Source of the DNA: Mycolicibacterium goodii | GTDB lineage: Bacteria; Actinomycetota; Actinomycetes; Mycobacteriales; Mycobacteriaceae | Length of the DNA: 64,000 nt | Assembly: GCF_001187505.1 (NCBI RefSeq) | Contig: NZ_CP012150.1 | Span: 6,172,048 to 6,236,047 of the forward strand | Reading direction: 5' to 3' | Part shown: positions 24,385 to 43,953 of the stretch, piece after piece | How positions within the stretch are numbered: position 1 is the stretch's first letter | Layout of the letters: each line of letters starts with the position of its first letter | Translations under genes and position numbers: made by a program | Notes under the pieces: generated by a model | Told to the model about the DNA's origin: nothing | The model's database searches: none | Seen by the model: the letters and a program-made list of their open reading frames with translations, nothing else

Positions 24385-24397
24385 GTATTTCCTCGTA

Positions 24398-26923: not shown

Positions 26924-26941
26924 ATGAGCGAGGGGCCAGCT

Positions 26942-27346
26942 GTGTCGTTGATCCGCATCAAAGACGCCGCGGCACTGCTGGGCGTCAGCGACGACACGGT
27001 GCGCCGCTGGATCGAGGGCGGTGCGCTACCGGCGACCAAGGACGACGCGGGCCGCAAGGTCATCGCAGGCGACGTGCTCGCCGCGTTCGCGCAGGCTCAT
27101 GCCGCACCCCCACCCGACCCGACCGGCATCGCGAGTTCGGCCCGCAACCGGTTCGTCGGACTCGTCACGAAGGTGACCGCCGACGCGGTGATGGCCGAGG
27201 TGCAGATGCAGTGCGGACCATTCCAGGTCGTGTCGCTCATGAGCAGTGAGTCGGTGGCATCGCTGGGCCTCGAGCCGGGCAAGGTCGCGGTGGCGGTCGT
27301 GAAGGCGACGACGGTGATCGTCGAAACACCAGGAGGTAGTTCATGA
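26942..27346 (+). CDS. HTH-Mop molybdate-binding regulator
   Basis: The protein is 134 residues. The N-terminal half is an excisionase/MerR-like helix-turn-helix (IKDAAALLGVSDDTVRRWIEGG), followed by a short linker. Then comes a single Mop/TOBE domain: SARNRFVGLVTKVTADAVMAEVQMQCGP to KVAVAVVKATTVIVE, which binds molybdate or tungstate. GTG 26942 is chosen for AGGGG six bases upstream; ATG 26924 would add six residues and lies in an inverted repeat. Its end overlaps modA (ATGA). It is likely the molybdate sensor of this operon in place of ModE. Confidence 0.85.
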   Translation: MSLIRIKDAAALLGVSDDTVRRWIEGGALPATKDDAGRKVIAGDVLAAFAQAHAAPPPDPTGIASSARNRFVGLVTKVTADAVMAEVQMQCGPFQVVSLMSSESVASLGLEPGKVAVAVVKATTVIVETPGGSS

Positions 27347-28889: not shown

Positions 28890-29965
28890 CCGGTCTGCAC
28901 GTGCGCGCACGGGTCCATGCGCGCGACGTGGACGTCGACCTCACCGTCGACGAGGGCCAGGTGGTTGCGGTTCTGGGGCCCAACGGAGCTGGGAAGTCGA
29001 CGCTGCTGGCCCTGATCGCCGGCCTGTTGCGCCCCGACGAGGGCCGCATCGTCATCGGTGACACCACCGTCGCCGACACCTCCGCGGGCACCTTCGTGCC
29101 GCCCCACTCGCGGGGTGTGGCGATGCTCGCGCAGGACCCGTTGTTGTTCCCCCACATGACCGTGGCCGCGAACGTGGCCTACGCACCGCGCTGCAAGGGA
29201 CACGGCCGGTCCGGCGCCCGGTCGGTCGCTCAGCGCTGGTTACGCGCCGTGGGTGCCGAGGATCTCGCCGAGCGCAGACCGTCAGCGCTGTCGGGCGGTC
29301 AGGCGCAACGGATCGCGCTGGCCCGGGCGCTGGCCGCCGACCCCAAGGTGCTGCTGCTCGATGAACCGATGTCGGCACTCGACGTCAACGCCGCCCCGGC
29401 AATGCGTCGACTGCTGCGCGACATGCTCGCGGCCGAGCATCGGACCGCCGTCATCGTCACCCACGATCTGCTCGATGCGTTGGCGATCGCCAACTCGGTG
29501 ATCGTCGTCGAGAACGGCCGCATCGTTCAGAGCGGCCCGGTCCGAGAGGTGCTGGCCGCGCCGCGCAGCGCGTTCGCCGCCCGCATCGCCGGGACCAACC
29601 TGGTGTCGGGTACGGTCACCGCACCGGGTGTCCTCCAGACACTTTGGGACACCGTGATTTCGGGCACCGGCGACACACCGGTCGGCACCTCTGCGGTCGC
29701 GTTGTTCACCCCGGCGGCGGTGTCGGTGCACCTCGACGTACCGCATGCCAGTCCCCGCAACGTGATCGCCGTGACGATCGCCGAGATGGACGTCCACGGC
29801 AGCACGGTCCGTATCCGCGGTGCCGATCAACCCGACGGCAGCGCCGGACTGAGCGCCGACGTCACCGCGGCCGCCGCGGCCGATCTCGACCTCGCCCCCG
29901 GCCGCCGGGTGTATTTCGTGGTCAAGGCCCAGGAGGTCGCGATCCATCCGGCGCTCACACCGTAG
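28886..29965 (+). CDS. modC: Molybdate ABC transporter, ATP-binding protein
   Basis: The protein is 359 residues. Walker A is GPNGAGKST near residue 33, the signature is LSGGQAQR near 132, and Walker B is LLLLDEP near 152, with the H-loop in [11 protein letters not shown]. The C-terminal 120 residues form a Mop/TOBE domain that senses molybdate and can inhibit transport. ATG 28886 overlaps the modB stop. It ends the operon; the next gene is convergent. Confidence 0.96.
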
Positions 29966-29988: not shown

Positions 29989-30771
29989 TCACCGGGCGAC
30001 CATGCCCGCGGACAGGTCGATGTCGGCCCCGCACAGCCCGGGCATGTGCAGCATGGCGATGGCGGCGGCGGCGACTTCCTCTTCGGTCACCATCCGGCGT
30101 AACGCCGCACGGCCGACGAAGGCGTCGCGTGCCTCGTCTTCGCTGATGCCAAGGGTTCTCGCCTCGAGGGCGAAGTTGCGGTCCATCCGTGGCCCCTCGA
30201 CCGGGCCGGGTGAAAGCGTGTTGACGTTGACTCCCTGCGGACCTACCTCGAACGCGAGTGTGCTGGTCAGTCCGATCACGGCCATCTTCGACGCGGTGTA
30301 GGGCGTACGCCGCGGCAATGGACGCTTACCGCTGACCGACGCGACGTTGATGATGTCGCCGCGACCCTGCGCGGTCATGGCGGGCAGGAACTCCCGACAC
30401 ATCAGGTACACGCCACGCACGTTCACGGCGAACACCTCATCCCACTCGTCGGGGTGGATATCGGTGAGCGCCGCCACCGGCCCGGCGACACCGGCGTTGT
30501 TGACGAGGATCGAAATGTCCTCGTCGGACAGGGTCACGCCGAGTTCCGCCACCGCTTCTGGATCGGAGGTGTCGCAGTCGACCCAGCGCGCCGCGACACC
30601 GATCTCCCCGGCGACCGTCGCCAGGGGTTCACGCCGACGTCCGACCAGGACCACGCGAGCACCGTTGCGGGCCAGTGCCAGAGCGATCGCCCTGCCCAGA
30701 CCGTTGCCCGCGCCGGTGATCAACGCGGTGCGTCCGGCGATGCGCGATGCCGCGGTTTCGGTCGGAATCAC
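29989..30771 (-). CDS. Short-chain dehydrogenase/reductase of the HisD-linked cluster
   Basis: The protein is 260 residues. ITGAGNGLGRAIA is near residue 16, NNAG near 90, and the catalytic residues are Ser in NVASVSG and the YTASK pair. The GTG at 30771 overlaps the stop of the HisD-like gene (GTGA), so the two are co-translated. In sulfopropanediol (hps) clusters a HisD-like enzyme works with SDRs that interconvert the enantiomers of the diol; this gene is in the matching position. Substrate is inferred, not shown. Confidence 0.88.
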   Translation of the reverse strand: MIPTETAASRIAGRTALITGAGNGLGRAIALALARNGARVVLVGRRREPLATVAGEIGVAARWVDCDTSDPEAVAELGVTLSDEDISILVNNAGVAGPVAALTDIHPDEWDEVFAVNVRGVYLMCREFLPAMTAQGRGDIINVASVSGKRPLPRRTPYTASKMAVIGLTSTLAFEVGPQGVNVNTLSPGPVEGPRMDRNFALEARTLGISEDEARDAFVGRAALRRMVTEEEVAAAAIAMLHMPGLCGADIDLSAGMVAR

Positions 30772-32087
30772 CGCGAAGCCGCCGCGTCGGCGGGCACCCA
30801 GCCAAATGTGTCGCCACCGAACTTCATCGCCCTGATGTCCCCGGATCGGGCATGGCCCTCGAACGATTCCACCCGCGCCGCTCGGCCACAGAGACGTCCG
30901 AGGGATGCGCTCGCCGCGGCACTGCGCACCTCCTGGTAGGTGACGGTCTTGAGGTACTTGCCGACCCACAGCCCGCCGGTGTAGCGGGCCGCACCCCGGG
31001 TGGGCAGGGTGTGGTTGGTGCCGATCACCTTGTCGCCGTACGAGACACAGGTGCCCTCGCCGAGGAAGAGCGCGCCGTAGTTGGTCATGCTGGTCAACGC
31101 GCGGCGCGGATCGGCCGTCAGGATCTGCACATGCTCGAACGCGTACCGGTCGCCCAGGGCGAACGCTTCCTCGATGTCGTCGACGACGGCGATCTCACCG
31201 TGGTTGCGCCAAGCGGGTTCGGCGAAGTCGCGTGTCGGCATGTCGGGCAGGAGCCGGTCGATCAGTTCGGCAACCCGCTCGGCGAGTGCGCGTGAGGTCG
31301 TGATGAGCACGGCGGGTGAGTCCGGTCCGTGTTCGGCCTGGCTCAGCAGATCGACGGCGACCACGAACGGATCGGCGGATTCGTCGGCGATGACCAGGAT
31401 CTCGGTGGGGCCGGCGAACAGGTCGATGCCCACCTGCCCGAAGAGCTGGCGCTTGGCCTCGGCGACATAGGCGTTGCCGGGACCGGCCAGCAGATCCACC
31501 TTGCCGATCGTCTCGGTGCCGATCGCCATCGCAGCCACAGCCTGGGTTCCGCCCAGAATGTTGATCTCGTCGGCGCCCGCGAGATGCAGGGCCGCGACCG
31601 TTGCCGCGGGAATCTGACCGTGGATCGGCGGTGTGCAGGCGGTCACCCGTTCGACGCCCGCCACCTTCGCGGTGACCACGGTCATGTGCGCCGACGCCAC
31701 CAGTGGATAGCGGCCGCCGGGTACGTAGGCTCCGGCCGCCGCGACGGGAATGTTGCGTTGCCCCAGGAAGACACCCGGTTCGGTCTCGGCCTCGAAGTCC
31801 AGGATCGAGTCGCGCTGACGCTGGGCGAAGTCGCGGACCCTCCCCTGGACCGCACGGATGTCGTCGAGCGCTTGCGCCGGGACACTCGCGACGATCCGCT
31901 CGATCTCTTCGGCGTCGAGGGCGAACGACTCGGGCGACCAGTTGTCGAATTTCGCCGAATATTCCCGGACGGCCTCGTCGCCGCGCGCGGTGACGTCGGA
32001 GATCACCTTCGCCACAATCTCTTTCACCGAAGCGTCGCGTTTCTCGTTGACTTCGGTGGGCGTGGCCCTCTTGAGGTAGTCGGTCAT
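30768..32087 (-). CDS. HisD-like dehydrogenase (HpsN-type candidate)
   Basis: The protein is 439 residues of the histidinol dehydrogenase family, zinc enzymes that oxidise a primary alcohol in two steps to an acid with two NAD+. The catalytic Glu-His pair is in RYAFEHVQI, zinc ligands Gln and His in LLSQAEHG, Asp in VSYGDKVIGTNHTLP, and a C-terminal His in FEGHARSGDIRA. It is not in a histidine operon. It neighbours two SDRs, a LacI regulator and a polyol-type permease, so it is a catabolic paralogue, most like sulfopropanediol 3-dehydrogenase (HpsN). Another polyol is possible. Confidence 0.85.
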   Translation of the reverse strand: MTDYLKRATPTEVNEKRDASVKEIVAKVISDVTARGDEAVREYSAKFDNWSPESFALDAEEIERIVASVPAQALDDIRAVQGRVRDFAQRQRDSILDFEAETEPGVFLGQRNIPVAAAGAYVPGGRYPLVASAHMTVVTAKVAGVERVTACTPPIHGQIPAATVAALHLAGADEINILGGTQAVAAMAIGTETIGKVDLLAGPGNAYVAEAKRQLFGQVGIDLFAGPTEILVIADESADPFVVAVDLLSQAEHGPDSPAVLITTSRALAERVAELIDRLLPDMPTRDFAEPAWRNHGEIAVVDDIEEAFALGDRYAFEHVQILTADPRRALTSMTNYGALFLGEGTCVSYGDKVIGTNHTLPTRGAARYTGGLWVGKYLKTVTYQEVRSAAASASLGRLCGRAARVESFEGHARSGDIRAMKFGGDTFGWVPADAAASR

Positions 32088-32123
32088 CTGGCACTCCTTC
32101 CTGTGCAGGCCCCACGGTGGGTC

Positions 32124-32135
32124 GCATACGTATAC
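32124..32135. promoter_or_regulatory. Candidate LacI-family operator
   Basis: The 82-base gap between the divergent HisD-like and lacI-type genes contains GCATACGTATAC, with the perfect palindrome ATACGTAT at 32126-32133. A central CG is typical of LacI-family operators. A site here could control both directions. Prediction from symmetry and position only. Confidence 0.45.
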
Positions 32136-32170
32136 TTGTCAACTGCGGGTTTGGCGAGCGGAGTCCTCAT

Positions 32171-33175
32171 ATGTCGCGTAGAGCTGTGACCAGCTTCGAT
32201 GTCGCGAAGTTGGCGGGAGTGTCTCAGCCGACGGTGTCACGCGCGTTGCGTAATCTGCCCGGCACGTCACCCGAGACCCGTGAGCGCGTGTTGGCCGCCG
32301 CGCTGGAGTTGAACTACATCCCGAGCGCGTCTGGACGCACGCTGTCGACCAGGACAACCCAGCGGGTGGCGATCGTCGCCGAGGAGCTGACCAATCCGTT
32401 CTATTCGGAACTGGTTGAGCCGCTCCGAAATACACTGAGTGAACACGGATACCGCGCAGTTCTGGTGACCGACCGCGCCGACGATCCGGTGACCGTCGAC
32501 GCACTGGCCGACGGGTCCTACGACGGCGTGCTGTTGTGCACCGTCACGCGGCGCTCGACGCTGCCACGCGATCTCACCGAGCGGGGCATCGCACATGTTC
32601 TGGTCAATCGGATTCTCGACGTGCCCGAGTCAGGCAGTTGCAGTTTCGACAATGTCGCCGGCGGACGCCTGGTGGGCGAGTTCCTCTGCCAACTCGGCCA
32701 CCAGCGGATCGGCGCGCTGCACGGCACCGTGGACAACTCAACCGCACGAGACCGCGCCCTGGGCCTGCGAAATGGGTTGCGCGCCCATGGGCTCCACGTA
32801 CGCCGGACCGATCTCCGTCGCGTGCCGTTCAGTTACGCCGCGGGGTATCAGGGGGCGCTCGAACTCCTGGACCGGCCAGACCGGCCGTCGGCGCTGTTCT
32901 GCGGCAACGACGTCATCGCCATCGGCGCGCTCTCGGCCGCAAAATCGTTGGGTATCAGGGTGCCCGAAGATCTGACCATCGTGGGATTCGACGACATCGG
33001 TGCCGCGGGCTGGGGAACCGTGGACCTGACGACCGTGAACTGCGACCGCGACGAACTGGCCCGCGAATCGGTGGAACTACTGTTGCGCGCGATCGGCGGA
33101 GCCGAGCCCGAGCAGCATGTCATCGCCCCCACCGGACTGGTCCGGCGCGGTACCCACGGCCGGCGGATACGTTGA
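32171..33175 (+). CDS. LacI-family transcriptional regulator
   Basis: The protein is 334 residues. The N-terminal helix-turn-helix with hinge is VTSFDVAKLAGVSQPTVSRA. The periplasmic-binding-like domain follows, with ERGIAHVLVNR, HQRIGALHG and PSALFCGNDVIAIGAL. The C-terminal VPEDLTIVGFDDIG is typical. It stands divergent from the HisD-like gene and convergent to the MFS gene. It should sense a polyol or a related ligand and control the HisD/SDR and SDR/MFS operons around it. Confidence 0.92.
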   Translation: MSRRAVTSFDVAKLAGVSQPTVSRALRNLPGTSPETRERVLAAALELNYIPSASGRTLSTRTTQRVAIVAEELTNPFYSELVEPLRNTLSEHGYRAVLVTDRADDPVTVDALADGSYDGVLLCTVTRRSTLPRDLTERGIAHVLVNRILDVPESGSCSFDNVAGGRLVGEFLCQLGHQRIGALHGTVDNSTARDRALGLRNGLRAHGLHVRRTDLRRVPFSYAAGYQGALELLDRPDRPSALFCGNDVIAIGALSAAKSLGIRVPEDLTIVGFDDIGAAGWGTVDLTTVNCDRDELARESVELLLRAIGGAEPEQHVIAPTGLVRRGTHGRRIR

Positions 33176-33194: not shown

Positions 33195-34475
33195 TCAGGG
33201 CTGGGATATCCGCGCGACCGCGGGGTCGGCACGAGTCGTCAGCCATCGCGAAGCAATGGCTGCCAGGACGTAGAGCGTGGCGAAAATCCATACCACGCCG
33301 GCGATTCCCACCAGTGGCCGGAATATGGCTACAACGGCCGGCCCGACAAAGGCAGCCAGTCCTGATCCGAGGTTCAGCATGGCCAATGCACTGCCGGTGT
33401 CCCCGCTGGGCGCCATGGCCGGCATAAGCGCCGACAAGGGAACGAATCCGGCGAGCGCCAATCCGTACAGGCAGCCACAGATCGCCGCGATCGAGAAGTT
33501 GCTGCCCGCTGTGAGTGGTCCGTAGTACATCAGAAGGGTTGCCGCGGCGCACCCGAGCGCCCCGACGTAGGTGACAGTGCGTCGCCACCCGAGACGGTGG
33601 GCGAGAAACCCGACTGCGACGTTGCCCACGAGGTTGGCCACGAAGATCAAGGTGTTGAGCAGAAGCCAGCGTGACGAACTGAAGCCGAGGCTTTCGAAGA
33701 AGAACGGCAGGAAGACGAAGAATCCGAACATCGCGGCGGCGTTGACGATCTTGACGCCGAGTCCGACGGCGATTTTCGGCTCGCGCCAGCAGATGGTGAG
33801 GCCATCGAGGAGATTTCTGGCACCCGCAGTCGCGGACAGCGGCCTCGAGCCGGTGCGCTCGCGCACGGCGAAAGAGCCCAGAGCGCCACCGATGATCACC
33901 AACGCCAGTGAGAGCCAGAGAGTTCCGTGGGCACCTATGAATGGGATGCTGAAGCTCGCGATGAGTGATCCCAGCGTGGGCAGACCTGCGACGAACACGA
34001 ACCAGAACCATCCGAGCGCCGGTGACAACCGGTCGGACGGCGTCGCGGCGACGACCCACACCAGAAATCCGTAGGCGAACAACGGGTAACCCAGACCACG
34101 GATCGAGTACAGCAGGATCATGGCGGCGGGACCAGTGGTGAGACCGACGGTGAGAAAGAGGATTTCGAAGACGATCCAGATCGCCGCGCCGGCACGCATC
34201 ACCGCACGCGGCCCGTACATCGTCGACAGCGTGCCCGAGAGCCAGGACCCGATTGCGACCGCGGCTCCGTAGATTGCGATCGCCGTTTCGGCGGTGCCGC
34301 GGGAGGATCCCGGTTGTTCACCGAGAAACGTTGCGATGTAGCCGGTCTCGATGCCGTCACCGATCATGAATACCAGCACGGCCAGGAATCCCCAGGCCAG
34401 TGGTCGAGGTATCCCGATGCGGGTGAGCCGTGACGACGGCACGGCCGGGTCGCTGACCGCGGCGATGATGTCCAT
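33195..34475 (-). CDS. MFS permease, polyol (RbtT/DalT/CsbX-like) type
   Basis: The protein is 426 residues with about 12 hydrophobic segments. Helix 1 contains FMIGDGIETGYIATFLGE, which I associate with the polyol permease group (ribitol, D-arabitol) of the MFS. RGLGYPLFAYGFLVWV in helix 4-5 and GWFWFVFVAGLPTLGS also fit this group. It lies 32 bases after an SDR gene on the same strand. Together with the HisD-like enzyme it suggests uptake and oxidation of a polyol or hydroxylated sulfonate. Confidence 0.82.
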   Translation of the reverse strand: MDIIAAVSDPAVPSSRLTRIGIPRPLAWGFLAVLVFMIGDGIETGYIATFLGEQPGSSRGTAETAIAIYGAAVAIGSWLSGTLSTMYGPRAVMRAGAAIWIVFEILFLTVGLTTGPAAMILLYSIRGLGYPLFAYGFLVWVVAATPSDRLSPALGWFWFVFVAGLPTLGSLIASFSIPFIGAHGTLWLSLALVIIGGALGSFAVRERTGSRPLSATAGARNLLDGLTICWREPKIAVGLGVKIVNAAAMFGFFVFLPFFFESLGFSSSRWLLLNTLIFVANLVGNVAVGFLAHRLGWRRTVTYVGALGCAAATLLMYYGPLTAGSNFSIAAICGCLYGLALAGFVPLSALMPAMAPSGDTGSALAMLNLGSGLAAFVGPAVVAIFRPLVGIAGVVWIFATLYVLAAIASRWLTTRADPAVARISQP

Positions 34476-34507
34476 TTGTATCTCCTTTGTTTCAAGGCGA
34501 GTGATGA

Positions 34508-35224
34508 TCAGATGGCGAGATAACCGCCGTCGATGACCAGTTCTGCGCCGGTCATGAAGCTCGATTCGTCGCAGGCCAGAAAGAGGGCACCGAACGCGAG
34601 CTCACGCGGATCGGCCGCGCGACCCATGGGTGTCGCGTCGAAGACCTTCTTGGTGACCGCAGGGTCTTGGCCGGCGATCAAAGGCGTGTCCACCAAACCG
34701 GGATGCAGCGAGTTGACCCGGATGTTGTCGGCGGCGTAGGTAACGGCAGCGTTCTTGCTCAAGGTCCGTACCGCGCCCTTGGCGGCCTGGTAGGCCGATA
34801 CGCCCACAGCGCCAACGTTGCCCCAGATGGACGACAGGTTGACGATGGATCCGCCGCCGCGTTCGCGCATGTGCGGGATGACCGCACGCATACCGTAAAA
34901 GGTTCCGGTGAGGTCCACGTCGAGTACCGTGCGCCAGGCGTCGAGACTGATCTCGGCGACACCGTCATAGGAGTGCACCACTCCGGCGTTGTTCACCAGG
35001 ACATCGATCGTGCCGTGCGCGGCGACGATCTCCGCCACCACCTGGTTCCACTCCCGCAGTTGTGTGACGTCGAGTCTGCGCCACCGAATGGTCTCTCCCA
35101 CCGGACTTTCAGTGATATCCGTGGCATAGACGACAGCCCCGTGCTCGGCGAACATGTCGGCAATGGCCCGCCCGATGCCTTGAGCGGCGCCGGTGACGAT
35201 GGCGATTTTTCCTTCCAGGCGCAT
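34508..35224 (-). CDS. Short-chain dehydrogenase/reductase, polyol dehydrogenase-like
   Basis: The protein is 238 residues of the classical SDR type. TGAAQGIG is near residue 11, NNAGVV near residue 79, and the catalytic residues are Ser in NLSSIWG and the YQAAK pair. The Asp in ATDI after strand 2 favours NAD(H). ATG 35224 follows AAGGAG; the frame extends further upstream without support. First gene of a two-gene operon with the polyol-type permease. It faces the GntR-type operator at 35395, 170 bases away, so either LacI or GntR could regulate it. Confidence 0.88.
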   Translation of the reverse strand: MRLEGKIAIVTGAAQGIGRAIADMFAEHGAVVYATDITESPVGETIRWRRLDVTQLREWNQVVAEIVAAHGTIDVLVNNAGVVHSYDGVAEISLDAWRTVLDVDLTGTFYGMRAVIPHMRERGGGSIVNLSSIWGNVGAVGVSAYQAAKGAVRTLSKNAAVTYAADNIRVNSLHPGLVDTPLIAGQDPAVTKKVFDATPMGRAADPRELAFGALFLACDESSFMTGAELVIDGGYLAI

Positions 35225-35394
35225 GGTCCTTGACTCCTTTGTCGGTAGGCGCGCCGCATCACCGCTCGGTGCGGCGGGCAACAAGCGCGAGCGTGAGACT
35301 TTCCGGTGCCGCTGAGACATCGCATCGGCGTGCCGGTGCCTAAGTTCTACGACGGTGAGTTCGAAGTGTCAATGACTATTCGTATATTCGCTTA

Positions 35395-35404
35395 TTTTCG
35401 AAAA
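35395..35404. promoter_or_regulatory. Predicted GntR operator, copy 1
   Basis: TTTTCGAAAA, a perfect ten-base palindrome, lies 20 bases ahead of the small ORF at 35425 and upstream of the Dabb/hydrolase genes. The same sequence occurs at 37613 and, with one changed base, at 40532, all next to genes of the 35-42 kb catabolic region. The surrounding 35380-35410 stretch is AT-rich against the high-GC background. Confidence 0.6.
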
Positions 35405-35424
35405 AAATGGGCTATGGTGCTGAT

Positions 35425-35505
35425 ATGACCGCAATCCGCCACATCCGGGTTCATGCAGACGATCTGGCCCCTCACGAATCACGCTGCGGGACGTACCGCG
35501 CATGA
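35425..35505 (+). CDS. Possible 26-residue leader ORF
   Basis: ATG 35425 opens a 26-codon frame (MTAIRHIRVHADDLAPHESR...) that ends at TGA 35503-35505, overlapping the ATG of the Dabb gene (ATGA). The overlap and the position just after the predicted operator suggest translational coupling. The start resembles the first strand of an enolase-superfamily protein, so it may be a remnant. There is no clear ribosome site, so confidence is low. Confidence 0.3.
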   Translation: MTAIRHIRVHADDLAPHESRCGTYRA

Positions 35506-35816
35506 TCGTGCACTCGGTGAGCTTTCGGTGGCACGCGGGCATCACGGCCGAGCAGATCGCGGCATTGACGGTCGCCCTGACAGCACTCCCGAGCCAGATT
35601 CCCGTGTTGTTGTCCTACCGTTTCGGACCCGATCTCGGCCTGCGCGAGGGAAACGCCGACTACGCGGTGGTCGCATTGCTGCGGAACCCACGAGACGTCG
35701 ACACCTACCTGGACCATCCCGCTCACATCGAAGTCATGCGGCAGTACACGCGGGTGATGGCGGCAGAGCGGTCCGCGGTGCAGTTCACCGTTCACGAGGA
35801 GGATCTCGATCGATGA
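35502..35816 (+). CDS. Dabb (stress-responsive A/B barrel) domain protein
   Basis: The protein is 104 residues, the usual size of a single-domain Dabb protein. It begins MIVHSVSFRW and ends in the DHPAHIEVMRQYTRVMA segment with the family His. The fold is a small dimeric ferredoxin-like barrel. Some relatives are polyketide cyclases or degradation helpers in aromatic or terpenoid catabolism; most are unassigned. Its stop overlaps the hydrolase start (ATGA), so it is in that operon. Confidence 0.85.
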   Translation: MIVHSVSFRWHAGITAEQIAALTVALTALPSQIPVLLSYRFGPDLGLREGNADYAVVALLRNPRDVDTYLDHPAHIEVMRQYTRVMAAERSAVQFTVHEEDLDR

Positions 35817-36590
35817 CCGAAGCTGATATGCAATACTTCGCCACCCAAATCCGGGGCAGCGGACCGGGATTGCTGCTGTCACACGGCGGTGGCGGCGGCA
35901 TCGATCTCAACTTCGGTCCGATCCTGCCGGTTCTGGCCGACCACTTCACCGTTGTGGGACCGGATTTTCCGGGTTCAGGAACCACACCGCGCAGTACGAG
36001 CCCGCTGACGCTCGACGGGCTCGCCGACGGATTGGTCGCCAGCGCGAACTCAGCAGGTCTCGACCGGTTCTCATTGGTCGGATATTCGATGGGCACGTCG
36101 GTCGCCATCCGCACCGCTGCGCGCCACCCAGACCGCGTGGACAAGATGGTGCTCATCGCCGGGTTCGCACGGCCCGACAGCTATCTGCGGCTCGCACTCG
36201 ACCTGTGGGAGGAGATGCTCGCCAGCAGACCGGAAGTCCTCGCGAAGTTTCCTTCTGACCCTTGGCGGCGGTGATCAGATGGTGTGCGGACTCGACAGTG
36301 CAGAGGTCGACGAACTCGTGACAACGATGGCCGAGAGCGTCCCGGCAGGCACAGCCGATCACGTCGCCTTGGCGAAGACGATCGATGTGCGGGCAGACCT
36401 ACCGCGGATCGAGACGTCGACGCTGGTGATCAAGACGACCCTGGACCGCCTTGCGACGCCGGCACATTCCGATGAGCTGGCCGCCGCCATACCGCGCGCT
36501 CGAATGGTCGAGCTGGACTGTGGTCATTCGGTCGCCGCCGAGCGCCCGGGACGGCTTGCGCAGCTGATCCTCGATCATCTCACCGATTAG
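35813..36590 (+). pseudogene. Alpha/beta hydrolase split by a one-base frameshift
   Basis: The first frame (35813-36274) gives MTEADMQYFATQIRG, the oxyanion segment SHGGGGG and the nucleophile elbow GYSMGTS, then stops after AKFPSDPWRR. The missing half is in the next frame up to 36590: SFLLTLGGGDQMVCGLD, the acid in TTLDRLATP and the base in LDCGHSVAAERP. Removing one T from the TTT at 36248-36250 restores AKFLLTLGGGDQM and a protein of about 258 residues with a full triad. So the gene is either newly broken or misread. It resembles enol-lactonase-type hydrolases. Confidence 0.88.
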
Positions 36591-36612
36591 CGCCAGCGCC
36601 CGACCGACGGAA

Positions 36613-36645
36613 AACTCCTGCGAGTCAATGTGACTCGCAGGAGTT
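36613..36645. terminator. Bidirectional intrinsic terminator
   Basis: Two perfect 15-base arms (36613-36627 AACTCCTGCGAGTCA and 36631-36645) flank a three-base loop. It sits between the convergent hydrolase and TIM-barrel genes. The stem is strong; only short A/T runs flank it. Confidence 0.85.
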
Positions 36646-36651
36646 CGTGCA

Positions 36652-37515
36652 TCAGGCGCCGGCGGCCTCGGTTGAAACCTTGTGTATCGCGTCAGCCAGA
36701 AGCGCTCCCACATCGTCGGGATCGAGTTGGTCAAGGTGATCGGAGAACACCTCGGGACCGACCGATCGAGGCGCCTGGTTCGACAGTATGGCGGCCATGA
36801 TGCCGACGACGTCCAACTGCCCTTGGCCGGGCAGATCCCGCAGGTGCGTCGTCTCATAGGTGGGATCGTGATTCAGGGATCGGGCCGACCCGTCGGCGAC
36901 CTGGATACCGAGGGGAAACGATTGAGCTGCAGCCGTGAGCGCCCCGAAGTCTGGCAGCCCTCGGGCGAAATGCCAAGTGTCCACCATGATTCCAGTGTTT
37001 TCACACCCTGCCTCTGCCACGACGGCGCGTGCGGTGTGGATGTCCGGGATACCCCAGAACGGCATGAATTCAAGGTCGACGTGCGCACCATGGGCCTGCG
37101 CACGCCTGGCCAATGCACCGAAGCCCTCGACCATTTCACCGAAACTCACTGCACCGCCGTCGAATACGCCAACGGCAAGGATCGAGGTGATCTCGAACTG
37201 CTCGACGAGGGCAAAACAGTCGTCCATCGAGTAATCGAAGCGTGCGCGAAGCGCGGCGTCAGCGGTGCGAGGAACCCGGATGGGCACCCAACCGGTGACG
37301 GTGTCGAGGTAGTCGAGACGCACACCGTGATCGGCGGCCATGCTGCGGGCCGCCGCAACTCCCCCGCACTGTTCGGCCGCAGACAGAAGCGCCGCCGGGG
37401 TGAGACCCAGATGGCCGAATCCGCCGGCCACGGCGGCGCGCAGTTGCCCCGGGAAGTCGTGCGTGCGCACGTTTGCCTCCCATAGGACCAGGTCACATCC
37501 GTCCAGAACTGCCAC
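36652..37515 (-). CDS. TIM-barrel sugar isomerase/epimerase-like protein (AP endonuclease 2 family)
   Basis: The protein is 287 residues. The metal site of the family can be traced: Glu in VDLEFMPFWG, Asp and His in IMVDTWHFARGLPDF, and Glu in VGPEVFSD near the end. Such enzymes isomerise sugars, inososes or hydroxy-keto acids. GTG 37515 is chosen because AAGGAG lies nine bases upstream; an in-frame GTG at 37584 would add 23 residues. It is divergent from the symporter gene with a predicted GntR operator between them. Confidence 0.82.
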   Translation of the reverse strand: MAVLDGCDLVLWEANVRTHDFPGQLRAAVAGGFGHLGLTPAALLSAAEQCGGVAAARSMAADHGVRLDYLDTVTGWVPIRVPRTADAALRARFDYSMDDCFALVEQFEITSILAVGVFDGGAVSFGEMVEGFGALARRAQAHGAHVDLEFMPFWGIPDIHTARAVVAEAGCENTGIMVDTWHFARGLPDFGALTAAAQSFPLGIQVADGSARSLNHDPTYETTHLRDLPGQGQLDVVGIMAAILSNQAPRSVGPEVFSDHLDQLDPDDVGALLADAIHKVSTEAAGA

Positions 37516-37612
37516 AGCCGTCCACTCCTTTTGCGCCGAATCATGGTCGAAGTACAAGCGCGGCCCATCCACGTCGGGCCGCACCGCGAATCATATGCGA
37601 GACAGTAGCAGT

Positions 37613-37657
37613 TTTTCGAAAATTTGTTGACAGATCGAAACTATCGCTGTTATACCT
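37613..37657 (+). promoter_or_regulatory. Symporter promoter with predicted GntR operator, copy 2
   Basis: TTTTCGAAAA at 37613-37622 is directly followed by TTGACA (37627-37632) and, 18 bases on, TATACC (37651-37656), a near-consensus sigma-A promoter for the symporter gene. A regulator bound to the palindrome would cover the -35 box. The segment TTTTCGAAAATTTGTTGAC is nearly identical to the site at 40533-40550. The site can also act on the TIM-barrel gene on the other strand. Confidence 0.65.
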
Positions 37658-37756
37658 ATGACGTGGCTCACGCCACTTCGCCTCCCGGAATGTGAGCCGT
37701 GGCAACCCATCTGAAGTTGCCGCCGCCGGGCCGAACAACACTGCGACTGGAGTGCC

Positions 37757-39425
37757 GTGTCTGTACGCCTTGATCTTGATCTGGCCGACTACCTGATCCT
37801 CTCTCTGTTCCTGATCACAACCGTCATCGTCGGCATCGCAAGTCGCCGCAGGGTCACAACGAGCGTCGACCAATTGCTGGCGGGGCGCGCCATGCCGGCG
37901 TGGATAGCCGGAATCGCCTTCATCGCAGCCGATCTCGGCGCCGTCGAAATTCTCGGCATGGCGGCCAACGGTGCGGAGTACGGAATGATGACCGTGCACT
38001 ACTACTGGCTGGCCGGCGTTCCCGCAATGGTCTTCCTCGGCATCATGATGATGCCCTTCTACTACCGCTCGAAGGCGCGATCGGTGCCCGAGTTCCTGCG
38101 GTTACGATTCAACAAGCCGACCCAGGGACTCAACGCGGTGATCTTCTCGATCGCTCAGGTTCTGATCGCCGGGGTGAATCTCTATGCTCTTGCGCTCATC
38201 ATGCGCGCGCTGCTCGGATGGGACCTCACCGCCTCGATCTTGGTATCGAGCCTGTTCGTGTTGACCTATCTCACGGTGGGAGGGCTCACGGCAGCCATCT
38301 ACAACGAAGTGCTGCAGTTCTTCATCATCCTGGCGGGGCTCGTCCCGATCACCGTCATCGGGCTGCTGTCGGTCGGTGGCCTCGACGGGTTGTTCGCCAG
38401 AGTGCGTGATTCCACGCATCTGGGCACCGCCGGCACCACAACATGGTCAGGAGTCGGACTGGGCGCGGCCGAGAACAACTCCATGCATACCAACGTCATC
38501 GCACTCGTATTCGGGCTCGGCTTCGTCGCCTCTTTCGGCTACTTCACCACCAATTTCCCGCAGGTGCAACGTGCGATGGCCGCACGGAACACGACCGCCG
38601 CTCGACGGGCACCCATCATCGGGGCCTTCCCCAAACTTCTCTTTCCGTTCTTGACCGTCATCCCCGGCTTGATCGCGCTTGTACTCATTCCGCAACTAGG
38701 CGTTGCAGGTGGCAGTGATTACAACAACGCTCTGCCGGCGTTGATGCAGAAGTTTCTGCCGAACGGCGTACTCGGGATCGCCGTGACCGGCCTCCTCGCG
38801 TCGTTCATGGCCGGAATGGCAGCCAACATCAGCAGTTTCTGCACGGTCATCACCTACGACATCACGCAGACCTACCTGGTCAAGAACAGACCGGACCACT
38901 TCTACCTCACCGTCGCACGCATCGCCCCGGTGGGCGGCGTCGCCTTGGCGATCGGTACCGCGTTCATCGCGGCCAGCTACAGCAACATCATGAACTATCT
39001 GCAGAACCTGTTCGCGGTGTTCAAACGCACCGCTGTTCGCGACCTTCATCATTGCGTTGTTCTGGCGTCGGATGACACCGTGGGCGGGATTCTGGAGCCT
39101 GCTCAGCGGCTCACTCGCGGCCGGCAGCGCCTACTTGCTGTACACGTTCGGCGTTCTTGATTTCGGTACTCCCATCAATGCGTCCTTCTGGAATGCCGCC
39201 ATCGCCTTCATCGCGTCAGCCGTAGCCGCCGTTGCTGTGTCAGTGGTGACCCGACCGAAACCGGCAGCAGAGCTGGAAGGGCTCGTGTGGCGAAAAGGTA
39301 TGTCGCTCAGTGACGGTGCGCCAGGCGAACAGGTGTACGCGTCGGATGCCTCGAAACTGTTCACCCCGGTGGCGCTCGGTGCCGCTGCGCTCGCCGGATG
39401 CGTCGGTCTCTACCTGGTGATGTGA
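37757..39425 (+). pseudogene. Sodium:solute symporter (SSS family) split by a one-base frameshift
   Basis: The first frame from GTG 37757 (GGAG upstream) gives a membrane protein with ADYLILSLFLITTVIVG, SVPEFLRLRFNKPTQG and FGYFTTNFPQVQRAM, typical of the SSS family, then reads nonsense after LFAVFK. The true continuation, NAPLFATFIIALFWRRMTPW, lies in the next frame and ends at 39425. Removing one A from the AAA at 39023-39025 joins them into about 555 residues. As written the protein loses its last helices. The solute is unknown; the locus suggests the substrate of the FAH/VOC pathway. Confidence 0.9.
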
Positions 39426-39434
39426 GGAACAACA

Positions 39435-39710
39435 ATGACGACAACAGATTCAGCACCTTCGGCGTCGACCACGAAACAACGCGGCTTCTGGCAGCACGCG
39501 GCCGATATCCGTTCTGTCACTGGCGTTCTCTTCGCCTGCTACGGTGCGATACTCACGATTCGCGGCGCGCTGGCGACCGATGCCGCGATCGCTCAGGCCG
39601 AGGGCGTCAACATCAACCTCTGGACGGGACTTGCGATGCTCGTGTTCGCGACGGTGTGCTTGTACTTCGCCTTCGCCCGAGAACAGCACACACCATTGTC
39701 ATCCGAGTAG
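39435..39710 (+). CDS. Small two-helix partner of the symporter
   Basis: The protein is 91 residues with two hydrophobic segments (TGVLFACYGAILTIRG and INLWTGLAMLVFATVCLYFAF). It begins nine bases after the symporter stop. Small two-helix proteins beside SSS transporters are common and probably help assembly or activity. It is not named here. ATG 39435 is the only good start. Confidence 0.75.
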   Translation: MTTTDSAPSASTTKQRGFWQHAADIRSVTGVLFACYGAILTIRGALATDAAIAQAEGVNINLWTGLAMLVFATVCLYFAFAREQHTPLSSE

Positions 39711-39724
39711 TCAGATCTGCCCCG

Positions 39725-39749
39725 GCGGATCGGGAGATTGCCGATCCGC
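39725..39749. terminator. Terminator-like hairpin
   Basis: Perfect nine-base arms (39725-39733 GCGGATCGG and 39741-39749) surround a seven-base loop, between the convergent small membrane protein and GntR genes. There is no U-tract. Confidence 0.6.
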
Positions 39750-39787
39750 ACGACTACCGGACCGGACATGCCCGGCGGCGACGGATA

Positions 39788-40468
39788 TCAAGCGGGAGAG
39801 GACAGCAGCACGTTGGTGGTGCGCTCGATGTGGGCGGTCAACAGATCGCACGCGAGGTCGGGATCCCGACCGACCGCAGCGTCGAGAATCGCCCGATGTT
39901 CTGCAGCGATGTCACGCTTGCGGTCGTGTCGGGGGGCCGACCACTGCCGATAGAGCTCGGCGGAATCACGCAATGCGCTGGCAGTGGCCAGGATTCGCCG
40001 GTTCGGACAGCCATCGAGCAGTGCCTGGTGAAACGCCGCATGCGCAAGCACCCAGTCATCGTTGAAGCGGTCCGGATCGGCGGTCGCATACATCGGTGTG
40101 CGTTCCATGCGGTGATGCGCTGCCACCACCTTCGACTCCCACGCGAGGTCCCCCCGATTGACCGCGTAACGCAGTGCGAGCACTTCGATCTCACAGCGCG
40201 CCTCGGTCAGATCGCTCAGATCTTCCGACGAGATCGCCACGACGCGGAATCCCCGCTTCGGTTCGGCGACCACCAGTTCCTGTTCGCTGAGCCGCTGCAA
40301 CGCCTCTCTGATCGCGCCGATGCTGCAGTCGTACCGATCCACCAAGGCCGCAAAACCCAGGCGCGACCCGGGGGCAAGCCGGCCCGCCAGGATGTCAGCC
40401 CGCAACGCCTGGTAGACCCGCGCCGTAGGGCCCATGCCATCCAAGACCTCACCGGTGGTCGCCGTCAT
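39788..40468 (-). CDS. GntR-family regulator (FadR/FCD type)
   Basis: The protein is 226 residues. The winged helix reads VYQALRADILAGRLAPGSRL, then CSIGAIREALQRLSEQELVV. The FCD ligand domain has EARCEIEVLALRYAV and FHQALLDGCPNRRIL, with the histidines that usually bind a metal and an acid. ATG 40468 has GAGGGG five bases upstream. The predicted operator TTTTCGAAAA (or its one-base variant) lies in its own promoter region and at two more promoters in the same cluster, so it probably represses the whole set until a pathway acid appears. Confidence 0.9.
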   Translation of the reverse strand: MTATTGEVLDGMGPTARVYQALRADILAGRLAPGSRLGFAALVDRYDCSIGAIREALQRLSEQELVVAEPKRGFRVVAISSEDLSDLTEARCEIEVLALRYAVNRGDLAWESKVVAAHHRMERTPMYATADPDRFNDDWVLAHAAFHQALLDGCPNRRILATASALRDSAELYRQWSAPRHDRKRDIAAEHRAILDAAVGRDPDLACDLLTAHIERTTNVLLSSPA

Positions 40469-40532
40469 CGCCGCCCCTCGTTCAACGTTTGCAGCACACC
40501 GCCATGGTACCCGAAACGAAAGAACTGCGAAC

Positions 40533-40551
40533 TTTCGAAAATTGGTTGACT
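40533..40551. promoter_or_regulatory. Predicted GntR operator, copy 3
   Basis: TTTCGAAAATTGGTTGAC lies between the divergent GntR and FAH genes. It keeps nine of ten bases of the palindrome seen at 35395 and 37613. The TTGACT at 40546-40551 could be the -35 box of the FAH/VOC operon; I see no good -10 box after it. Confidence 0.58.
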
Positions 40552-40638
40552 TTTCATTCTGTCGATGTGATCGTCGTAGGCGGGCCGTCCGGCCCCTGCC
40601 TCTCTCACAACACCACACGATCAGGAAGAACTGGTGTC

Positions 40639-41517
40639 ATGCGCTTGATCAATCTCGACGGTCGGATCCACCTCGTCACCGGCGACGGCGTGGTCGACAT
40701 AGCCAAAGCGTCAGAACAACGCTTTGGCCCCGATCCGCAGGATGTGTACGCGCAGTGGGAGGCATTTCGCGAATGGGCGCGCACCGCGACACCGCTCGAA
40801 CCGTCCGCACGCGTCGGGACCATCGGGTCCCCGGCACCGCTGCCGCGGCAGGTCTTCGCCGTCGGCCTCAACTACGACGACCACGCCACCGAGGCCGGGC
40901 TCACCAAGCCCGAGCATCCGGTGATCTTCACGAAGTTCGTCTCGTCGATCACCGGGCCGTCCGAAACCGTCCGGCTGCCGGCGGGTTCGGTGGACTGGGA
41001 GGTCGAGTTGGTCGTGGTGATGGGTCGCGGCGGCCGGAACATCCCGCAGGACCGTGCGTGGGACTTCGTCGCAGGGGTGTCGGTGGGTCAGGACCTCTCC
41101 GAGCGTGATCTGCAGCTCGCGGGCCCCGCCCCGCAGTTCAGCCTCGCCAAGTCGCACGCCGGGTTCTCCCCGATCGGACCCGAGTTGGTGACGCTCGACG
41201 AACTGCCCGACCCCGACGATCTGGAACTGGGCGCCGAGATCAACGGTGAGACCGTCCAGCACGCCCGCACCTCGCAGCTGATCTTCCCGGTGCCGGTGCT
41301 CATCGCCTACCTGTCGGCCACCGTCGAGCTCTATCCGGGCGACGTCATCTTCACCGGAACACCGTCCGGCGTCGGTATGGGACGGACCCCGCAGCGATTC
41401 CTGACCCCCGGCGACGAACTCCGCACCTACATCACCGGCGTCGGCGAGTTCACCCAGCGGTTCAAGGCGGGCCCGGACCGCGACGACGTGTCCACGGCGG
41501 CAGCGGCACGGAGCTGA
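40639..41517 (+). CDS. Fumarylacetoacetate hydrolase (FAH) family protein
   Basis: The protein is 292 residues. The catalytic fold is clear: VFAVGLNYDDHATEAGL near residue 75, the metal ligands Glu-x-Glu in DWEVELVVVMGRGG, Asp in SVGQDLSERDLQ, and IFTGTPSGVGMGR near the C-terminus. Members hydrolyse or isomerise ring-cleavage products such as fumarylpyruvate, acylpyruvates or homoprotocatechuate derivatives. ATG 40639 with AGGAAG upstream gives MRLINLDG, the usual beginning. It is followed after two bases by the VOC gene. Confidence 0.9.
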   Translation: MRLINLDGRIHLVTGDGVVDIAKASEQRFGPDPQDVYAQWEAFREWARTATPLEPSARVGTIGSPAPLPRQVFAVGLNYDDHATEAGLTKPEHPVIFTKFVSSITGPSETVRLPAGSVDWEVELVVVMGRGGRNIPQDRAWDFVAGVSVGQDLSERDLQLAGPAPQFSLAKSHAGFSPIGPELVTLDELPDPDDLELGAEINGETVQHARTSQLIFPVPVLIAYLSATVELYPGDVIFTGTPSGVGMGRTPQRFLTPGDELRTYITGVGEFTQRFKAGPDRDDVSTAAAARS

Positions 41518-41519
41518 AA

Positions 41520-42443
41520 GTGGCTCTGCACCGACTCGACTCAATCGTGCTTGGGGTACCGGATCTGGCGTCGGCCAGTAGCTTCTACGAGGACTTCGGG
41601 CTGATCCCCCACGACGGACACCGCTTCGCCAGCACCGAGGGCGGCGTCCAACTCGAACTGGTGGTCTCCGCGCGGCGCCGGCTCGTCTCGGCACGGTTCG
41701 CGGTCGACGATGACGACGACCTACTTCGGGTGGCGCACGAACTCAGCCGACTGGAGTTCACGGCCACACTGCCAGAACCCGGAAGGTTGCGCACCGTCGA
41801 GCCGACGACGGGCGCCGAGATCGAATTGATCACCGCTCCGCGCCTACACCAAACTCCTTACCCCGCACCGCCGGTGAACGCACCAGGACGCTTCGACCGC
41901 GTCGACGCCCGCGCCGAGGGCATCATGGTCACCGACCGGGTACGGCCCCGACGACTCGGCCACATCGTGATCGGATCCCCCGACTACGACACCGCATTCG
42001 CGTTCTTCGTCAGTGGACTCGGCTTCAAGGTCAGCGATCTGGCGAAGGGTCACGGCGCATTCCTCCGGTGCTCTACCGATCACCACAACGTCCTCATCCA
42101 ACGCGCTCCTGTGCCGTTCCTGCACCACAGCAGTTGGCAGGTCGACGATGTCGATGCAATCGGTCGAGGCGCAATGGCGCTGCTGGAGGATCACCCCGAA
42201 CGCCACGTCTGGGGACTCGGTCGCCACTACGCCGGCTCGAACTTCTTCTGGTACTTCAAAGACCCGGCCAACAATTTCGCCGAGTACCACAGCGACATGG
42301 ATTGCATCGTCGACGACGCCTTGTGGACGCCCGAGGAACTCGAAGGCGCCAAGGGGCTCTACGAGTGGGGGCCGCCCCCGCCGGCCTCCTTCATCCACCC
42401 GGAGGACCTGGCCGAGCACATGATCAGCGAACACAGCGGCTGA
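41520..42443 (+). CDS. Two-domain VOC protein, extradiol dioxygenase-like
   Basis: The protein is 307 residues with two vicinal-oxygen-chelate modules. The C-terminal module keeps the extradiol metal triad: His148 in RLGHIVIG, His203 in LHHSSWQV and Glu255 in FAEYHSD. These bind Fe(II) in catechol 2,3-dioxygenase and BphC-type enzymes. GTG 41520 follows GGAG. It starts two bases after the FAH gene, so a diphenol cleaved here could feed the FAH enzyme. The substrate is not known, and non-oxygenase VOC functions cannot be excluded. Confidence 0.88.
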   Translation: MALHRLDSIVLGVPDLASASSFYEDFGLIPHDGHRFASTEGGVQLELVVSARRRLVSARFAVDDDDDLLRVAHELSRLEFTATLPEPGRLRTVEPTTGAEIELITAPRLHQTPYPAPPVNAPGRFDRVDARAEGIMVTDRVRPRRLGHIVIGSPDYDTAFAFFVSGLGFKVSDLAKGHGAFLRCSTDHHNVLIQRAPVPFLHHSSWQVDDVDAIGRGAMALLEDHPERHVWGLGRHYAGSNFFWYFKDPANNFAEYHSDMDCIVDDALWTPEELEGAKGLYEWGPPPPASFIHPEDLAEHMISEHSG

Positions 42444-42972: not shown

Positions 42973-43803
42973 TCATCCGCGATACCGCTGCACCAGGTTC
43001 GCGTAGTCGTCGAGCTTGCGCAGCGATTCGTCGGTGGGCAGCGTCGGCAGCAGCACCGCGATCTGACCGAACCCGAGTTCGTCGACCGCGCTCCAGTACT
43101 GCGGGTCCGCCGGCGTGCCGAACTGGGCGAGCGGCACGTCGTGACCGGCCCCGTCGCGCATCTGCGTGACGAGGTTGCCCAAGAAATCGACCGGCAGCGG
43201 GTTGGAGATCCAACCCGCGTCATGGCGGATCACCCGCTTGACGGTGGCCGCGGACGCACCGCCGATATAGATCGGTGGGTGCGGCTTCTGCACCGGCTTG
43301 GGTCGCATATACGACGACTCGATGTCGACGTACTTGCCGTGATACTCGGCAGGCTCGTCGGTCCACAACGCCTTGATCGCCTCGATCTGTTCGTCGAGCA
43401 GGCGGCCGCGCGTCTTCGGGTCGGTCCCGTGGTTGCGCATCTCCTCCAGATTCCAGCCGGCGCCGACGCCGAACACGAACCGCCCGTTGGAGATCAGGTC
43501 GACGCTCGCACCTTCCTTGGCGGTGTGCACGACATCGCGCTGGATCAGCAGGGCCACACCGGTGAACAACTCGATGGTGCTGGTCACCGCAGCGGCCGCG
43601 GCCAGCGTGACGAACGGGTCGAGGGTGCGGTAATACATCGCGGGCAACTCGCCCCCACCCGGGTAGGCCGACTCGCGGCTGGTCGGGATGTGCGAGTGTT
43701 CAGCGATCACCAGTGAGTCAAAGCCGCGTTCCTCGATCGCGCGCGCAAGCGTCACCGGGTCGATGGTGTCATCGTTGACGAAGGTCGAGATGCCGATTTT
43801 CAT
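42973..43803 (-). CDS. LLM-class F420-dependent oxidoreductase
   Basis: The protein is 276 residues of the luciferase-like family. It begins MKIGISTFVNDDTIDP and has GFDSLVIAEHSHIPTSR, GRFVFGVGAGWNLEEMRNHG and PPIYIGGASAATVKRV. The pattern is that of mycobacterial F420 enzymes. ATG 43803 has GGGGA upstream; the frame to 43827 is not supported. Single gene; substrate unknown. Confidence 0.9.
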   Translation of the reverse strand: MKIGISTFVNDDTIDPVTLARAIEERGFDSLVIAEHSHIPTSRESAYPGGGELPAMYYRTLDPFVTLAAAAAVTSTIELFTGVALLIQRDVVHTAKEGASVDLISNGRFVFGVGAGWNLEEMRNHGTDPKTRGRLLDEQIEAIKALWTDEPAEYHGKYVDIESSYMRPKPVQKPHPPIYIGGASAATVKRVIRHDAGWISNPLPVDFLGNLVTQMRDGAGHDVPLAQFGTPADPQYWSAVDELGFGQIAVLLPTLPTDESLRKLDDYANLVQRYRG

Positions 43804-43953
43804 GCGTATCCCCTGCCAGTTGAGCACTGATGAGTCGCCCGCTCACCACAGGCTATTACCCCTACCTGGATTCTCGGGGCTCGTCGGCGTCGGCTACACC
43901 AATGGGGCGGTCATCGGGCAGGTAACCTCCGGGTCGATGCACACCACGAGACG

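Follow-up and report, generated by a model that had tools for sequence, protein, structure and literature searches.

Quinate and shikimate are catabolized through the 3-dehydroshikimate dehydratase QuiC/AsbF to protocatechuate, and the orcinol and trihydroxytoluene pathways use extradiol cleavage to an acylpyruvate that is then split to pyruvate and a keto acid. The DntG enzyme of 2,4-dinitrotoluene degradation is presumably FAH-like. One report describes DntD and DntG of that lower pathway as a trihydroxytoluene oxygenase and an isomerase/hydrolase, with pyruvate and acyl-CoA as end products (PMC10602510), and another pairs the inositol transporter IolT2 of C. glutamicum with an intradiol dioxygenase and a maleylacetate reductase, under a repressor released by 1,2,4-trihydroxybenzene (PMC7764795). 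Here, we analyzed a gene cluster of Mycolicibacterium goodii (contig NZ_CP012150.1) within a window of 64,000 nucleotides (6.17-6.24 Mb of a single-contig genome of 7,105,933 bases), for which an original prediction had proposed a GntR regulon with a possible undescribed catabolic pathway. The best overall explanation, to which we assign a probability of about 0.5 on sequence evidence, is that a cyclitol-like compound would be aromatized and its ring then opened under the control of this regulon.

In the proposed mechanism, a GntR/FCD repressor would occupy TTTTCGAAAA in three divergent promoters until released by a pathway compound. Derepression would provide uptake proteins (an SSF symporter with its partner, and an MFS transporter), an upper pathway (SDR, TIM barrel, Dabb protein, and alpha/beta hydrolase), and ring fission (VOC and FAH). 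The SDR would oxidize an alicyclic polyol, deoxyinositol- or quercitol-like, to a ketone, and the TIM barrel, helped by the Dabb protein, would remove water until an aromatic trihydroxybenzene such as hydroxyquinol is formed without any ring hydroxylase; arithmetically, deoxyinositol minus 2 H minus 2 H2O gives C6H6O3, the formula of trihydroxybenzene. Extradiol cleavage by the VOC protein would yield a 2,4-dioxo acid, an acylpyruvate that the FAH enzyme would split to pyruvate and a small acid (malonate semialdehyde in the case of hydroxyquinol). We infer the repression, the substrate, the order of the steps, and the roles of the Dabb protein and the hydrolase from the features described below.

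Results

Three divergent pairs, ten genes in all, span positions 33195-42443 (open reading frames [ORFs] and Pfam), with one TTTTCGAAAA-type site in the intergenic region of each pair. MFS and SDR genes face Dabb and alpha/beta hydrolase genes across site 1 (TTTTCGAAAA, 35395..35404), a TIM-barrel gene faces the SSF symporter and its small partner across site 2 (TTTTCGAAAA, 37613..37622), and the GntR gene faces the FAH and VOC genes across site 3 (CTTTCGAAAA, 40532..40541). The latter, a one-base variant, lies about 64 nt from the start of GntR and 98 nt from that of FAH, and its position is conserved in the closest relatives. A motif search thus placed the two exact sites and the variant in divergent promoter regions, just as the original prediction had done. 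A TTGAC -35-like box begins 4 nt beyond sites 2 and 3, and reading of the sequence gave a promoter-like TTGACA-N17-TTATAC for the symporter (37627..37655, plus strand) and a -35-like TTGACT for FAH-VOC (40546..40551, plus strand).

These three sites are the only matches to TTTTCGAAAA with up to one mismatch in the 64 kb, where 0.35 would be expected, and shuffling of the window reached three such matches in 1 of 100 cases. Random occurrence of the motif across the genome had been named in the original prediction as an outcome that would speak against it; the exact 10-mer has two copies in the whole genome, both in the cluster, for a zero-order expectation of 0.47. Furthermore, the extension toward the -35 box, TTTCGAAAATTNGTTGAC, is matched exactly only at window positions 37614 and 40533, and its remaining 5 genome matches carry 3 mismatches. 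The shorter core TTTCGAAA has 25 genome copies (10 for the reversed control). Three of these are the window sites, 2 belong to another GntR-FAH-VOC locus (4.35 Mb), and 20 lie elsewhere. Sixteen of the 22 copies outside the window lie inside ORFs and 6 are intergenic, including the 2 flanking the 4.35-Mb locus, as assigned by a rough ORF caller, which put two of three promoter sites known from relatives within ORFs that it had called too long.

The regulator (39788..40468, minus strand, with a start probably at 40468) has both domains of the FCD (FadR) subfamily above cut-off (PF00392, 57.5 bits; PF07729, 76.5 bits). Like FadR-type regulators, it combines a winged helix-turn-helix with an FCD domain and has a promoter divergent with its own gene. 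GntR regulators of the FCD (FadR) family have operators of the GT-N(0-1)-AC type, from which the candidate operator TTTCGAAA differs. Its recognition helix, CSIGAIREAL, resembles that of the nearest relatives with the operator, which have S-[IV]-G-A-I-REAL in common, and more distant proteins vary it (29-locus table). Matches at E 1e-45 or better were found in 14 of 396 genomes of the genus and in 2 of 396 genomes of the phylum draw (own included), and identity reaches at least 59%, a line chosen after the list was viewed, in only 5 genus genomes, own included. A general mycobacterial regulon was rejected on account of this rarity. The phage search gave 2 matches, both distant, and the genome contig scan gave two loci only, both in Subtercola.

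Excluding our own, we compared 36 GntR loci in long stretches, seeking TTTCGAAA within 400 nt upstream. The core was present at 10 of them (L056, L057, L058, L060, L003, L004, L029, L025, L161, and L069), the first four being the closest relatives of the regulator (60-86% identical). Its frequency was 7 of 11 among the closest loci versus 3 of 25 among the others (p 0.003; cut-free rank test, p 0.0006), the loci in these tests not being independent. At the genome level, the search for the operator followed by TTGAC that the original prediction had suggested was carried out with TTTCGAAAR-N4-5-TTGAC, which occurs in 46 of 396 genus genomes. The expected pairing held in all five genomes with a close GntR (own, G590, G922, G899, and G1051), but the pattern was not confined to them, being found in 41 of the other 391 (p 1.7e-5; 4/4 versus 41/391, p 1.5e-4, with our own genome excluded). 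Since the pattern was derived from sites in those five genomes, the comparison is a test of background and no blind prediction. Of the matches in genomes lacking a close GntR, 26 were inspected: 22 fell in ORFs (same rough caller), often in the same gene repeatedly, and the other 4 were intergenic and of a single sequence. As a separate observation, TTTCGAAAAAGCCCTTGAC is a conserved intergenic element shared by several genomes of the genus in which a close GntR is missing (L095, L103, L105, and L109; position 1501).

Additional sites in the relatives precede genes of related kinds. In G1051, a second operator-type site lies 75 nt upstream of a sugar-type ABC importer operon, and in G899 a further site lies 160 nt upstream of another sugar-type ABC importer (C20:14825), while another precedes an operon for a cupin, a small protein, a Gfo/Idh oxidoreductase, and an aldo-keto reductase. 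Five regions around further TTTTCGAAA sites of G590, G922, G899, and G1051 were inspected, and those at G922 3472660 and 5750839 and on G899 C67 and C45 had no match to the window proteins. A regulon under one shared GntR operator is the firmest part of the reading, and very probably correct as far as sequence comparison can indicate. The earlier claim of a single regulator over uptake and ring cleavage is well supported in silico by the private operator, its recurrence at GntR-FAH promoters of relatives, and the ABC importers.

The ring-cleavage genes follow site 3 on the plus strand. The FAH-family hydrolase (40639..41517) belongs to its superfamily by PF01557 (E 2.5e-62, 210.8 bits; best PDB relative 6v77, 568 bits), and the VOC protein (41520..42443, PF00903) is a type I extradiol dioxygenase by family and active-site residues. 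Its metal ligands H148, H203, and E255 form the intact 2-His-1-carboxylate triad that had been reported for it, and H189, H236, and Y245 align with catalytic positions of BphC (chain 1han), so that six extradiol active-site positions are kept; the BphC residues aligned with these six we take to be metal binding or catalytic. Among 27 stretches with this type of GntR, an FAH relative (at least 45% identity) is present in 20, and FAH together with VOC (at least 50%) in 14, one stretch (L060) ending at FAH. In R. koreensis and Rhodococcus BH4, the FAH-VOC pair stands with an FAD monooxygenase and an acetoacetate-CoA ligase; the Pseudonocardia pair also has such a ligase nearby, along with a flavin reductase and an acyl-CoA-dehydrogenase-like protein. 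These neighbors fit an extradiol enzyme opening a trihydroxylated ring, with FAH splitting the resulting acylpyruvate. Ring cleavage by VOC and FAH is likely in this cluster, judging from the pairing and the intact active site, in agreement with the order of reactions proposed originally. For a VOC relative on one S. clavuligerus plasmid, the annotation of the stretch showed no FAH gene.

FAH-VOC-SDR clusters with a related FCD regulator also occur on the Rhizobiaceae plasmids NZ_CP118261 (L164) and NZ_CP119569 (L168 and L170), apparently as the same cassette in another phylum. Both plasmids carry a HisD gene, and NZ_CP119569 has sugar-type binding proteins.

Described pathways resemble this module without coinciding with it. 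The best NCBIfam match of the VOC protein is HpaD, the VOC-type extradiol enzyme of homoprotocatechuate degradation, and HpaG, with an FAH fold, is among the better ones for FAH; however, the scores are 49.7 bits against a cut-off of 321 (TIGR02295) and 151.5 against 276, respectively, and the other scanned cluster proteins have no Hpa family match. The FAH score for 2,4-didehydro-3-deoxy-L-rhamnonate hydrolase (NF053535) is 197 bits, below the cut-off of 500. Set beside DntD/DntG by description, the cluster is alike in having a trihydroxylated ring and a ring-cleaving oxygenase followed by a hydrolase, but it lacks the dinitrotoluene dioxygenase and nitrocatechol steps and has a different upper pathway and regulator. 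In comparison with quinate/shikimate catabolism, the cluster has no quinate dehydrogenase, ring fission would rely on VOC extradiol cleavage and FAH, and its TIM barrel scores 29 bits for QuiC against a cut-off of 1200. The homoprotocatechuate, rhamnonate, and quinate pathways were therefore rejected by name, as their scores lie far below the curated cut-offs.

For the upper pathway, the relevant evidence comes from relatives of the SDR (34508..35227, minus strand; PF13561) and of the TIM-barrel protein (36652..37500, minus strand; sugar isomerase/3-dehydroshikimate dehydratase superfamily), whose start is probably near 37500 judging from homologues. Among the best 60 of 256 plasmid records found by tblastn, 20 carry an SDR at 50.6-59.9% identity, and in 18 of these a TIM relative lies within 25 kb (17 from tables and R. 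opacus from annotation, its TIM being 99% identical to that of RHA1); those without one nearby are Shinella PSBB067 and Phyllobacterium zundukense. The next 40 listed SDR records (42.9-47.4%) gave a single case (Rhodococcus WAY2; best places only). The resulting p of 3.7e-12 for 18/20 versus 1/40 is overstated, since 12 of the 20 records are from one Rhizobium group. The SDR relatives at 56-60% identity stand in TIM/hydroxyquinol clusters on Rhizobium, Agrobacterium, and Rhodococcus plasmids, and in these genera the SDR and TIM relatives adjoin hydroxyquinol-type intradiol dioxygenases and sugar-type ABC transporters. Within the best 60 of 405 dioxygenase records, an intradiol dioxygenase was found within 7 kb in at least 9 of the 20 SDR records; by annotation it is also near the SDR in R. 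leguminosarum CP049732, in Paraburkholderia an intradiol-type enzyme is next to the TIM gene, and in Shinella it is 111 kb from the SDR. The order in R. opacus and R. jostii RHA1 is TIM, SDR, intradiol dioxygenase, maleylacetate reductase, NTF2, SDR, sugar ABC transporter, and SDR, and no ring hydroxylase was annotated in the 24.7-kb stretch of R. opacus. Likewise, ORFs and Pfam revealed no ring hydroxylase under any of the three operators of M. goodii.

The structure model of the TIM barrel is nearest to lmo2234, IolI, and the QuiC type, an IolI/IolE/QuiC-like fold with acidic metal ligands, and G715 joins a TIM relative (42%) with a VOC relative (80%). At E 1e-40, the protein was found in 1 of 346 genus genomes, our own, although it is also present among the proteins assigned by name to M. 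goodii, M. wolinskyi, and M. smegmatis. For TIM relatives on R. qingshengii, Microvirga, and Deinococcus plasmids, the surrounding annotation included neither FAH nor an intradiol ring-cleavage gene, and the Phyllobacterium SDR (50.6%) has a VOC gene and a quinol-monooxygenase-type gene near it. The hydroxyquinol pathway is alike in that SDR and TIM relatives adjoin its genes, together with a Dabb-annotated protein in R. leguminosarum, but the ring opening in our cluster would be extradiol with FAH and not intradiol. Neither an intradiol dioxygenase nor a maleylacetate reductase was matched in the 64-kb window; both are at 1.15 Mb of the genome.

Discussion

The operators, the gene families, the active-site residues, and the co-occurrence of the genes are direct observations, and the question is which substrate they best suit. 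The original prediction had favored a hydroxylated ring or a sugar-linked aromatic compound. With SDR and TIM relatives lying beside hydroxyquinol genes, the better reading is an alicyclic polyol that would first be made aromatic, although this upper route of SDR and TIM barrel is the least certain part, and we regard it as slightly short of an even proposition. More broadly, cyclitols may be catabolized without oxygenase-type hydroxylation through two exits, either an intradiol dioxygenase with maleylacetate reductase, as in Rhodococcus, Rhizobium, and Agrobacterium, or, in our cluster, an extradiol VOC protein with an FAH acylpyruvase under the GntR subfamily with TTTCGAAA, a generalization that is possible but that we hold with somewhat less than even confidence.

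Several findings weigh against the cyclitol explanation. A hydroxyquinol-type intradiol locus is present separately, at 1.15 Mb of the genome. The repressor binding and the enzyme activities are predicted ones. The TTTCGAAA core, missing at 26 of the 36 loci, is mostly absent among less similar GntR relatives, and the fairly close L059 (58%), L159 of Embleya (57%), and L061 (55%) lack it as well. Elsewhere, the FAH-VOC cassette is supplied by hydroxylases, and the 19 kb of the nearest orthologous locus, in G590, contain GntR-FAH-VOC but none of the upper genes. One Rhizobium group accounts for 12 of the 20 SDR records, so that their count overstates independence. The TIM barrel is only 28-33% identical to the nearer TIM protein of hydroxyquinol clusters and 24-26% to the second, scores 29.1 bits for QuiC NF042435 against a cut-off of 1200, and has Gln228 in place of one usual metal ligand; its closest plasmid relative (R. 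qingshengii, 41%) stands with an SDR and an MFS gene, and the annotation shows neither FAH nor an intradiol gene over 8 kb. Additionally, our VOC gene has a luciferase-like monooxygenase gene (42973-43827) as its neighbor on the opposite strand, and the A. tumefaciens cluster also encodes an LLM flavin oxidoreductase and an FMN reductase; these genes may leave room for a hydroxylation step.

Such a step is central to the alternative of an ordinary phenolic or resorcinol-type substrate with a hydroxylase coded elsewhere, the SDR, TIM, and Dabb proteins serving side-chain or unrelated steps. The FAH-VOC neighbors in R. koreensis, Rhodococcus BH4, and Pseudonocardia suit orcinol-type chemistry, and the luciferase-like gene next to VOC agrees with it, but the lack of a hydroxylase under the three operators and the link of SDR and TIM to clusters without an annotated hydroxylase, which it leaves unexplained, make it unlikely. 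We consider it rather unlikely that an aromatic glycoside is degraded, with the SDR oxidizing the sugar, the TIM barrel removing the 3-keto sugar, and VOC and FAH cleaving the di- or trihydroxylated aglycone. Keto-sugars and some glycosides are substrates of TIM barrels in this superfamily, and both the sugar-type importers in related clusters and the G899 operon from cupin to aldo-keto reductase behind its operator would suit a sugar moiety; nevertheless, the scanned cluster proteins include no glycosidase, the nearest folds of known role are IolI and a QuiC-type dehydratase, and the R. opacus and R. leguminosarum hydroxyquinol clusters have TIM and SDR without glycoside hydrolases in the stretches viewed.

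Two further explanations would deprive the cluster or its sites of a present role. A decaying remnant of a horizontally gained pathway no longer in use is improbable: the disrupted symporter and hydrolase genes, the patchy spread of the TIM barrel, and the lower GC content (0.633 for the cluster versus 0.666 for the window) are what it would leave, but the remaining genes are open, two operators are exact, and two breaks in one assembly could be sequencing errors. That the TTTTCGAAAA sites are due to chance or serve another regulator is very improbable. AT-rich palindromes are frequent in promoters, and the longer pattern also occurs in genus genomes without a close GntR, with one recurring intergenic form; on the other side, most of the inspected matches there lie inside ORFs, and the core tracks GntR similarity. 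Chance was rejected as the origin of the sites because exact copies are confined to the cluster, near-matches are few, and shuffles seldom reproduce them.

If the cyclitol explanation is true, sugar-type and aromatic catabolism would be joined, as an aromatic ring would be made from a sugar-like compound only to be broken, a new catabolic strategy for cyclitols that are plant or soil compounds. It would also assign a function to those hydroxyquinol-type dioxygenase clusters of rhizobia and Rhodococcus that include sugar transporters, give several orphan families (the TIM group, Dabb, and SDR) a substrate class, and provide a regulator-operator pair as a handle for finding more clusters. The suggestion that the pathway is undescribed agrees with the literature searched, which covers few subscription journals: nothing in it joined GntR with a TTTTCGAAAA operator or hydroxyquinol with inosose, the listed matches for hydroxyquinol and cyclitol include, by title, no catabolic cyclitol study, and hydroxyquinol with sugar phosphate isomerase led to protocatechuate in Vibrio.

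Remaining genes and neighboring loci

Pfam agreed with the families first proposed (Dabb, alpha/beta hydrolase, TIM barrel, SSF, GntR with FCD, FAH, and glyoxalase), but that gene list had overlooked the disruption of two genes and the SDR-MFS pair (33195-35227), which also belongs to the cluster. The MFS transporter gene (33195..34475, minus strand; PF07690, 102 bits) is 32 nt downstream of the SDR gene, and the two probably form one operon under site 1. The Dabb-domain protein (35502..35816, plus strand; PF07876, E 3.8e-12) is preceded by a 26-codon leader ORF (35425..35505, plus strand) whose TGA overlaps the Dabb ATG (ATGA), which may reflect translational coupling or a remnant.

The alpha/beta hydrolase and the SSF symporter are each spread over two reading frames and look disrupted. 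Run separately against Pfam, the hydrolase pieces (35813..36274 and 36279..36590, plus strand) matched positions 3-129 and 175-244 of PF00561, respectively. The N-terminal symporter piece (37757..39160, plus strand) was assigned from PF00474 and homologues, and the C-terminal ORF (39057..39425, plus strand) from position and translation; symporters are intact, at 554 amino acids, in M. wolinskyi. The route may be impaired in the M. goodii strain, or the breaks may be sequencing errors. The small partner (39435..39710, plus strand), of 91 amino acids, had no family match in Pfam and NCBIfam scans.

Upstream of the cluster, positions 29989-33175 hold an SDR and a HisD-family enzyme nearest to sulfopropanediol (DHPS) dehydrogenase (398 bits versus 274 for histidinol dehydrogenase), facing a LacI regulator, possibly a sulfonate-diol operon by these scores. 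The HisD-SDR operon (29989-32087) was left out of the regulon because it has no operator site and the LacI gene faces it; HisD homologues nonetheless accompany FAH and VOC in clusters of G899 (75%) and A. vitis (59%). Farther upstream, 26924-29965 encodes an ABC importer (SBP_bac_11 and BPD_transp_1; of the molybdate type by eye) behind a small ORF with a helix-turn-helix, and 20573-25861 is another catabolic operon, with an SDR, an IclR regulator, an HMGL-like lyase, a GntP permease, and, by eye, a CaiB-type CoA-transferase.

Elsewhere in the same genome, the paralogous GntR-FAH-VOC locus (L029; G000:C1:4342000-4361000) includes, besides its two TTTCGAAA sites, genes for a sugar-type ABC importer, a cupin, an alpha/beta hydrolase, and two amidohydrolases. 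At 1144500-1164000 (L179), genes for a TIM barrel, an SDR, and a shikimate-dehydrogenase-like protein accompany those for the hydroxyquinol-type intradiol dioxygenase and the maleylacetate reductase, and a PcaR-like IclR regulator lies alongside.

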